A stretch of DNA of 54,615 bases from Acinetobacter sp. GTDB taxonomy: Bacteria > Pseudomonadota > Gammaproteobacteria > Pseudomonadales > Moraxellaceae. A program made the position numbers and the translations under genes. The stretch spans positions 1 to 54,615 of the forward strand of contig JAITLL010000016.1 in assembly GCA_031277915.1 (NCBI GenBank), read 5' to 3'. Under the pieces are notes generated by a model. The model searched no databases, was not told the origin of the DNA, and saw only the letters and a list, made by a program, of their open reading frames with translations. This document shows, piece by piece, positions 32,720 to 34,891 of this stretch (its first letter is position 1; each line of letters begins with the position of its first letter).

Positions 32720-33517
32720 TTAATATTCAATTAATTTTTCGTTTAAGTAGCGCCAATAACGTTTCGGTAAATATTGCACATGAAGTTTTATATTCTGGCG
32801 TTCTGTAATATTAACGCTATCAAAATAATCTTTCCAAAGCTGGTCATATAAGACTTCTTGCTCATCTAGCTCAAGTTGAAAGCTTTGACTCATGCCATTT
32901 TTTAAATTACGGTCAACTTCAGAGGCTTCGAGTGAAACTTCATGTACTTCTCTTAAGTCATAATAAATACCAAACTTACGTTGCTCATCATAAATGAGCC
33001 AACGCTGATCTTGATAACACCGTTTAAAATGCGGCTGAATAAGCGGTAAAACATTAAAATCTGGCCGTACTGAACTTAAAAAAAGCTCATCTTTGGTTTT
33101 CTTAAAACGAATAAAAGCCTCCATTCGATGCTTCTCACGCCCGACCTTTTTCTTCCACTGTGCAATTGCTAAAACACTTGGATGCGAATAATCTTTTTCT
33201 ACTGATGAATGACTAGTAAACACATAAATACAGTAGTTAAATAAGTGTTGATAAGCATCTAAAGATTCAGATAAATAAACAAAATAAAATTGTTTTAACG
33301 AAGAGGATGAAAGTTTTTTTTGTAGCGCAGACCACACACGCTCAGCATGCTGTTCGTTATTTGAAACCTCAATTTTATCGGCAAATAAGCCATGTTGAGC
33401 CGTATCATTCAAACAGAGTCTGACCTGTAATTCTTTAAATTGAAATGCGCGAAAAACACAGCTCAGTAGTCCCACCATTGAACCATCAAAATAGTAAGCG
33501 ATTTCATCATTAAACAT
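32720..33517 (-). CDS. DUF4130/TIGR03915-type putative DNA-repair partner protein
   Basis: The start MFNDEIAYYFDGSMVGLLSC with a following Phe/Lys-rich segment fits the DUF4130 family (TIGR03915), which is genetically paired with a radical-SAM protein. Many members carry a C-terminal uracil-DNA-glycosylase-like domain; this 265-residue protein ends at ...RYWRYLNEKLIEY and lacks it. The core LPLIQPHFKRCYQDQRWLIYDEQRKFGIYYD is intact. The gene begins two bases after the stop of the radical-SAM gene, so they are translationally coupled. The biochemical role is unproved. Confidence 0.82.
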   Translation of the reverse strand: MFNDEIAYYFDGSMVGLLSCVFRAFQFKELQVRLCLNDTAQHGLFADKIEVSNNEQHAERVWSALQKKLSSSSLKQFYFVYLSESLDAYQHLFNYCIYVFTSHSSVEKDYSHPSVLAIAQWKKKVGREKHRMEAFIRFKKTKDELFLSSVRPDFNVLPLIQPHFKRCYQDQRWLIYDEQRKFGIYYDLREVHEVSLEASEVDRNLKNGMSQSFQLELDEQEVLYDQLWKDYFDSVNITERQNIKLHVQYLPKRYWRYLNEKLIEY

Positions 33518-33519
33518 GG

Positions 33520-34782
33520 CTAAAACCCAAGGCTTAATTGGGGCGAGAGTTGCTGCACATATTTCGAGGAACCCTGCGTTAAAATCTGCTGCCGAATGAA
33601 ACTTGAAGAAAGTTCTTTTTGGAACTTTGGACTGTCTTCACAGCGAATAAAGAATTTTGCACGCTGATAAGCTACGCCGAGTTTTTTAAGTAAATCGATA
33701 TGGATTTTTCCAAAATGACGAGCCTGCACAATTTTCTTAGCTGATTTCACTCCAATGCCCGGCACACGCAAAATCATTTGATAATCGGCACGATTTAAAT
33801 CTACTGGAAACTGTTCAGGATGCCTTAACGCCCAGCTTAATTTCGGGTCTACATCCAAATCTAAATTCGGGTGTTTTTCATTGACGATTTCACTGACCTG
33901 AAAACCATAAAAACGCATCAGCCAGTCACTTTGATAGAGTCGATTTTCCCGAAGCAATGGCGGTGTAGAACCCACTGCTGGCAAGTAATTATTTTCAGTA
34001 TTAATTGGGATATAACCCGAAAAATAAACGCGTTTGAGTTTAAATTCTTTATAGTGCTTGTCTGCCATAAACAAGACATCTTGGTCTGACTCTTGATGTG
34101 CTCCCACTACCATTTGAGTGGTCTGCCCTGCTGGTACATATTTCGGCACATGCTTAATGATTTGTCGTTCATCTTTTAGTTGAATAAGCCTGTCACGCAC
34201 TAACCCTAAATCTTTTTGCACTTCCTGATGTGATTTTTCTGGCGCAAAAGTTTTTAGTCCAATTTCGGTCGGCATCTCTAAATTAATACTCATACGATCC
34301 GCATATAAACCTGCTTCATGAATCAGTTCAGGCGACGCACCTGGAATGGTTTTTAAATGAATATAACCATTAAAGTTTTCTTCAAGGCGCAACTTCTTCA
34401 CCACTTGCAGCATACGCTCCATCGTATGATCGGCTGATTTAAAAATACCTGAGCTTAAAAATAAGCCTTCAATATAATTCCGGCGATAAAAATTAATGGT
34501 TAAGTCCACCACCTCTTGCACCGTAAATGCTGCACGTTGAACGTCATTAGAACGACGTGAAACACAATAAGCGCAGTCAAAAATACATACATTACTAAAT
34601 AGAATTTTTAAGAGAGATACACAGCGGCCATCTTCTGTATAGCTGTGGCAAATTCCTGAATGACTGGCATCCCCCAGACCTTTATCTTTATTTTTACGGT
34701 CACTGCCACTTGATGAACAAGACACATCATATTTAGCAGCATCGGCAAGAATCTGTAGTTTTTCTCGAATGCGATCAGACAT
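33520..34782 (-). CDS. Radical SAM putative DNA modification/repair protein (TIGR03916 type)
   Basis: The radical-SAM cluster motif CxxxCxxC is formed by C66, C70 and C73 (SNVCIFDCAYCVSRR). A second set of Cys (C22, C45, C54) precedes it and could hold another cluster. Near the C-terminus IL RVPGIGVKSAKKIV (residues about 337-352) is a helix-hairpin-helix DNA-binding motif. This combination matches TIGR03916, a radical-SAM family that co-occurs with DUF4130 and uracil-DNA-glycosylase-like domains, and distantly recalls spore photoproduct lyase. 420 residues is typical. It is first in a two-gene operon. Confidence 0.88.
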   Translation of the reverse strand: MSDRIREKLQILADAAKYDVSCSSSGSDRKNKDKGLGDASHSGICHSYTEDGRCVSLLKILFSNVCIFDCAYCVSRRSNDVQRAAFTVQEVVDLTINFYRRNYIEGLFLSSGIFKSADHTMERMLQVVKKLRLEENFNGYIHLKTIPGASPELIHEAGLYADRMSINLEMPTEIGLKTFAPEKSHQEVQKDLGLVRDRLIQLKDERQIIKHVPKYVPAGQTTQMVVGAHQESDQDVLFMADKHYKEFKLKRVYFSGYIPINTENNYLPAVGSTPPLLRENRLYQSDWLMRFYGFQVSEIVNEKHPNLDLDVDPKLSWALRHPEQFPVDLNRADYQMILRVPGIGVKSAKKIVQARHFGKIHIDLLKKLGVAYQRAKFFIRCEDSPKFQKELSSSFIRQQILTQGSSKYVQQLSPQLSLGF

Positions 34783-34891
34783 ATCAAACGACTCATTTAT
34801 GGCATCGTTTAAAAAATATCATTTTGGATTCTTAAATTTAATCCAGTGAAGTACGCTCAGCGTCATGAGGTGACGTTTAAAATAATCTGCT

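Follow-up and report, generated by a model that had tools for sequence, protein, structure and literature searches.

Proteins of the radical S-adenosylmethionine (radical-SAM, rSAM) family TIGR03916 and of the family TIGR03915 are catalogued in NCBIfam as a putative DNA modification/repair pair, and the family name implies a linked uracil-DNA glycosylase (UDG). The present analysis deals with such a pair, devoid of UDG, in a stretch of 54,615 nucleotides from Acinetobacter sp. (contig JAITLL010000016.1, assembly GCA_031277915.1; the whole stretch is called hereafter the window). Its rSAM protein, which carries a helix-hairpin-helix (HHH), belongs to a family that we take to be COG4277. In excerpts of PMC8565304, a two-gene COG1573-COG4277 operon is described as a uracil-DNA-glycosylase system and predicted under Bacteroidetes LexA-like boxes; the Bacteroidota partners analyzed here, in contrast, have no UDG, and the Acinetobacter repeat is different. 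DUF4130, the domain of the partner, is connected in part of PMC3765255 with SplB-like rSAM and UDG, and predicted there to be a mutagenesis-related enzyme; among the repair genes of reconstructed and minimal genomes, a table in the available part of PMC8307549 includes a radical-SAM protein with a putative role in DNA modification/repair. No biochemical study of TIGR03915/TIGR03916, DUF4130 or COG4277 was found in the open-access literature. The initial annotation of the window stated that such pairs are described only as probable DNA metabolism proteins. In the papers found, these families are catalogued but uncharacterised. To our knowledge, spore photoproduct lyase (SPL) is the one well-characterised radical-SAM enzyme repairing DNA.

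The reading retained here, with a probability of about 0.55, is that the pair is a DNA-damage-inducible rSAM DNA-repair enzyme with a DNA-holding partner, the reaction being putative. The features considered are the following:

33520..34782, minus strand: rSAM protein, 420 aa, TIGR03916, with C66xxxC70xxC73, invariant C22/C45/C54 and a C-terminal HHH at about residues 326-356.
32720..33517, minus strand: DUF4130/TIGR03915 partner, 265 aa, without UDG domain, defined by its open reading frame (ORF) and profile matches; its model resembles RecJ/Cdc45-type DHH-DHHA1 folds.
34861..34875, no strand assigned: candidate operator CGTCA-CCTCA-TGACG (minus-strand reading), its far end being 93 nt from the rSAM start, on the upstream side; also found before uvrA in Acinetobacter.

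As for the NCBIfam pair, the genes adjoin (the gap between the rSAM stop and the DUF4130 start is 33518-33519) and the profile matches are full length: (i) rSAM protein against TIGR03916, 689.5 bits (cut-off 343.5, E 1.8e-207, profile positions 1-414 of 415); (ii) partner against TIGR03915, 255.8 bits (cut-off 112.25, E 4.5e-76, positions 1-243 of 243). The partner also matches DUF4130 (PF13566) with 162.8 bits (cut-off 27, E 7.2e-48), and the rSAM protein matches the radical-SAM domain PF04055 with 33.7 bits (cut-off 29.5). The HHH (PF12836, residues 326-356, E 2.6e-6) is barely above its cut-off (27.9 vs. 27 bits). Cys residues of the rSAM protein are at positions 22, 45, 54, 66, 70, 73 and 381; CxxxCxxC and C22, C45 and C54 are kept in 96 of the 97 aligned relatives' rows, the remaining row being a gap. 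The initial annotation had given the TIGR03915/TIGR03916 assignment, the CxxxCxxC motif (C66, C70, C73) with three further N-terminal Cys, the C-terminal HHH and a partner beginning two bases downstream. The hidden Markov model search places both proteins far above the cut-offs, the Cys positions and the two-base gap agree, and the HHH is backed by its match.

The best 80 of at least 589 rSAM relatives were used, their titles assigning 14 to Acinetobacter and 66 to Bacteroidota. A DUF4130 ORF (251-342 aa, mechanical start) follows the rSAM gene in 79 of them, with a spacing from overlap up to 0.93 kb, and the 80th locus ends at a contig edge. Besides the pair, any neighbour family reaches at most 17 of 95 loci. 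The two adjoining genes form a real conserved unit. The window rSAM protein is 99% identical to its A. pittii ATCC 19004 counterpart.

Two SOS motifs of Bacteroidetes are reported in part of PMC8565304, the COG1573-COG4277 operon being among the predicted targets. Of the 66 Bacteroidota loci, 37 have the dyad CTAA-N5-TTAG between −150 and +60 relative to the rSAM start, compared with 11 of 2384 control windows. When the letters of the dyad were put in 11 other orders, or its spacing was set to four other values, the counts were 0 or 1. The GGA-N5-TCC motif was found at one Bacteroidota locus. The scan of Pseudomonadota covered 45 loci with rSAM besides the own genome (i.e., the genome of the window), 44 of them with sufficient upstream DNA. 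LexA-type boxes, for which we assume the patterns GTTC-N7-GTTC and CTGT-N8-ACAG, stand upstream of the unit at 34 of these 44 loci (23 for the former in either orientation, 11 for the latter), and all six control patterns gave 0. Loci with a box comprise UDG-less as well as UDG-fused forms. It is a new observation that the UDG-less unit itself sits behind lineage-specific DNA-damage boxes.

The family of Acinetobacter has no known LexA homologue according to the available part of PMC8565304. An inverted repeat was first spotted by eye in 14 Acinetobacter loci and in the window, all showing it upstream, then defined as CGWCA-N5-TGWCG and searched in 31 Acinetobacter genomes, 22 of which have the rSAM gene. 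It is present upstream of rSAM, at −88 to −100, in exact form in 18 of the 22 genomes and with at most one mismatch in all 22; the window copy is inside the 109-bp gap between the rSAM gene and the upstream gene. A copy upstream of uvrA was first noticed in a scan of the own genome, then tested in 30 genomes (own included): 23 have it exact, 25 with one mismatch allowed. This result is more independent, since the motif was chosen from the rSAM promoters. The motif is absent from control windows (0/374, 0/390 and 0/239), 59 permuted dyads reach a maximum of 4 (rSAM) and 2 (uvrA), and other spacings give 0. Since the spacers vary in addition (9 and 11 kinds), it is the dyad itself, not general conservation, that is kept. 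The repeat was rejected as a terminator because the gap contains no terminator-like site; no sigma-70-like promoter was found there either. On these sequence grounds, the repeat can be proposed as a candidate damage operator. In part of PMC3978071, mitomycin C raises uvrA 3.4-fold in A. baylyi, in a RecA-dependent and not UmuDAb-dependent way; for uvrC, the treatment leads to repression in this species and to no change in A. baumannii 17978.

A role in DNA repair, already put forward in the initial annotation, gains support because SOS-type boxes precede the unit at many loci of Bacteroidota and Pseudomonadota and because its candidate operator in Acinetobacter is shared with uvrA. The same facts oppose the idea that the unit has undamaged DNA, RNA or nucleotides as substrates of a modification made under stress, without any lesion repair. 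A figure legend in the available part of PMC3765255, according to which the association might modify thymines, agrees with that idea, which we nevertheless hold to be very unlikely.

Two other exact copies of the motif were noted in the own genome. The first (C8:70423-70437, L136) precedes a small membrane-protein ORF by about 117 bp, and two related genomes have its 15-mer once each; this ORF is a possible further regulon member. The second (C8:44068-44082, L135) is inside an ORF that we take to be YqiA-like, upstream of another, presumably parE-like ORF, and recurs in two relatives; it may reflect coding conservation only. Two WYL-domain proteins of the own genome (L227, L228) are candidate regulators of the operator, since regulators with this domain are involved in damage responses elsewhere (PMC10693628, in part). 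A WYL-type activator was nevertheless not retained, since nothing connects the two proteins to the operator, and a literature search for a WYL-type damage regulator in Acinetobacter turned up no paper.

The maximum likelihood tree of rSAM proteins (89 rows, midpoint root) includes 44 of the 80 listed relatives, and its sample favours near relatives. The 12 Acinetobacter rows form a single clade (100/100) within a 31-row clade containing 19 Bacteroidota rows (100/97), inside an otherwise Bacteroidota group. This nesting points to a transfer of the UDG-less unit from Bacteroidota to Acinetobacter. It is new that the Acinetobacter copy nests in Bacteroidota and carries an inverted repeat common to uvrA. 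The rSAM of a second Moraxellaceae genome, of another genus (L083), groups with Chryseobacterium, apart from Acinetobacter and on a long branch; this may be due to another transfer from Bacteroidota, independent of the first.

No UDG family is among the profile matches of the rSAM protein or of the partner, as initially annotated. The suggested search for a separate TIGR03914-type UDG was run and gave no match in the own genome, whose assembly (3.48 Mb, 83 contigs) is 91.8% complete; the sole PF03167 match is a protein that, by its motifs, we take to be Ung-like. In all 65 Bacteroidota loci where a partner is found (among the best 80 relatives), it is solo, and solo partners occur in Pseudomonadota too; the absence of UDG, pointed out in the initial annotation, is therefore nothing special but the usual state in the Bacteroidota loci examined. 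It had also been considered that the partner might be a truncated remnant of a longer UDG-fused protein of close relatives. Fused forms do exist in Pseudomonadota. The TIGR03915 match is however full length, the partner is conserved up to its C-terminal region in 64 aligned relatives, and the Acinetobacter proteins nest inside Bacteroidota with solo partners. Truncation, already contradicted by these results, is the least credible of the explanations considered.

In Pseudomonadota, TIGR03915 is matched in 88 of 398 genomes (87 above cut-off). Among the 50 loci read (L083-L132), there are 29 in which the protein continues after DUF4130 with a tail exceeding 120 aa. These values (29 with and 21 without tail) are no frequency, as 20 loci were picked mainly for short ORFs and the 21 tail-less loci include the own genome and L112, which is cut by the locus end. 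GEQPGD is found in 28 of the 29 tails and an N-x-V-K...K-x-R-x-H stretch in 26; both are UdgX motifs according to part of PMC10359453. The single tail searched against PDB (L100) has UdgX structures as top matches (E 1.5e-50). Judging from these sequences, many Pseudomonadota have a fused UDG that is UdgX-like, i.e., like the M. smegmatis enzyme, which was found neither in the window pair nor in the own genome. The words "operon" and "fusion" are absent from the main texts of PMC10359453 and PMC10776899.

These tails, seen in 29 of 50 non-randomly chosen loci, together with the crosslinking of UdgX to AP-DNA (apurinic/apyrimidinic DNA; PMC10359453, in part), would fit a unit processing uracil or AP-site intermediates, e.g., DNA-protein crosslinks from UdgX-like or SRAP proteins. 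We consider this quite unlikely, since UDG-less units stand alone: besides the negative own-genome search, none of 48 Bacteroidota genomes has TIGR03914 above cut-off, with 2 weak matches (50 genomes requested, 66 loci available).

The unit could also reverse a UV photoproduct as SPL does, by hydrogen abstraction from a pyrimidine dimer. The radical-SAM domain, the HHH and the SOS-type boxes are compatible with such a reaction, and PMC3765255, in the part available, places the family with SplB-like rSAM. SplB likewise belongs to the radical-SAM proteins acting in DNA repair, and in several species it is under SOS regulation according to the excerpts of PMC8565304; these list SplB (COG1533) as a separate SOS gene. 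Moreover, no SPL chain is among the sequence or profile matches of the rSAM protein to PDB (a missing match proves little), and the pair differs from SplB by three extra invariant Cys, the HHH tail and a conserved partner. An SPL-like activity is thus unlikely.

The DUF4130 model resembles PAP phosphatase, RecJ and Cdc45-type (DHH-DHHA1) folds (Foldseek), which raises the question of a RecJ-like nuclease with the rSAM protein as accessory. The DHH motif is absent from the 265-aa sequence, and the fully invariant columns (H130, A134, F135, R137, F138, P152, F164, W228, Y231 and R240, 115 rows) are not a DHH-type ligand set; profile comparison gives no sequence support for a relation of the partner to RecJ. 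A nuclease is extremely unlikely. Alignment A1 contains the window sequence and 63 of 71 listed sequences, A2 the window sequence and 51 of 76. Searched against PDB, the A1 profile had only weak matches, namely to S100-type, OR34 and de novo M7 entries, and the rSAM model, which is weak, matches generic radical-SAM barrels. The invariance of the extra Cys triad and the RecJ/Cdc45-like model of the partner are new observations.

The proposal of a damage-inducible repair enzyme must be weighed against several results. (i) Exact boxes are missing at 29 of the 66 Bacteroidota loci and at 10 of the 44 Pseudomonadota loci. (ii) Of the 31 Acinetobacter genomes, 9 have no rSAM gene, one of them being 65% complete. 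(iii) Genome-wide, the motif is hardly enriched: it is found 11 times in the own genome vs. 7 for reversed-pattern controls, and 15 vs. 15, 19 vs. 11 and 23 vs. 7 times in three other Acinetobacter genomes; a recurrent copy included in these counts is probably 16S rRNA. (iv) Upstream of uvrC, the motif is found in 4 of 30 Acinetobacter genomes only. (v) In part of PMC3978071, uvrA is unchanged after mitomycin C in A. baumannii 17978; "radical SAM" is absent from its main text, and none of its table entries could be assigned to the rSAM gene. (vi) The TM-scores of the DUF4130 model do not exceed 0.40, and sequence homology to RecJ/DHHA1 was rejected, the hhalign probability (at most 0.3%) being no better than that obtained against the unrelated rSAM alignment. 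(vii) The rSAM model is poor (predicted local distance difference test, pLDDT, 67.7). It must be noticed that the four genomes with the uvrC motif are the closest by UvrC identity and include the own genome (C54:6566-6580, L142).

Under the repair reading, both genes would act as one DNA-damage-inducible unit. C66, C70 and C73 would bind the [4Fe-4S] cluster cleaving SAM, and C22, C45 and C54 may be ligands of another metal or Fe-S site. Damaged, perhaps single-stranded, DNA would be held by the HHH tail together with the RecJ/Cdc45-like DUF4130 protein, and the 5'-deoxyadenosyl radical may then act at the damaged nucleotide, either by reversal or by making the nucleotide removable. Lesion removal by radical chemistry, which the initial annotation had suggested, is an inference. 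The UdgX-like domain of many Pseudomonadota would be an optional uracil/AP-site module, and Acinetobacter would have taken the UDG-less form from Bacteroidota and placed it under its own non-LexA control. A more specific version is tentative and, taken as a whole, doubtful: a damage-inducible rSAM enzyme, having an additional metal site at the N-terminus and assisted by a RecJ/Cdc45-like partner that is nuclease-dead and holds the DNA, would reverse or excise a base lesion through an as yet undescribed chemistry, with an operator-defined damage regulon including uvrA in Acinetobacter.

Around the pair, the flanking genes presumably encode an HPP/CBS membrane protein, a small DUF1311-like protein and GlyQ/GlyS. 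Relatives of the rSAM protein are found in 158 plasmid records, including 58 Phaeobacter, 15 Paracoccus and 11 Azospirillum. As to Acinetobacter, three "plasmid" records have 3.7-4.1 Mb and resemble misfiled chromosomes. Two 240-kb "Acinetobacter phage" records containing the pair (CAKLQF020000004.1 and CAKLQH020000003.1, 98.8% and 94% identity) are probably bacterial chromosome contigs. A phage or defence origin was rejected: there is no PADLOC match at E<=1 and no informative PHROG, pattern-based IMG/VR scans gave one relative per protein, and phage records number 10 for one protein and 11 for the other, with "Bacteriophage sp." contigs of fecal origin making up 8 in each case.

If the repair reading is true, the pair would be a second, widespread radical-SAM DNA-repair enzyme, tied to damage control in two phyla, and would add to the chemistry of repair. 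The repeat shared with uvrA makes it testable how the LexA-less Acinetobacter controls repair genes beyond the UmuDAb set.
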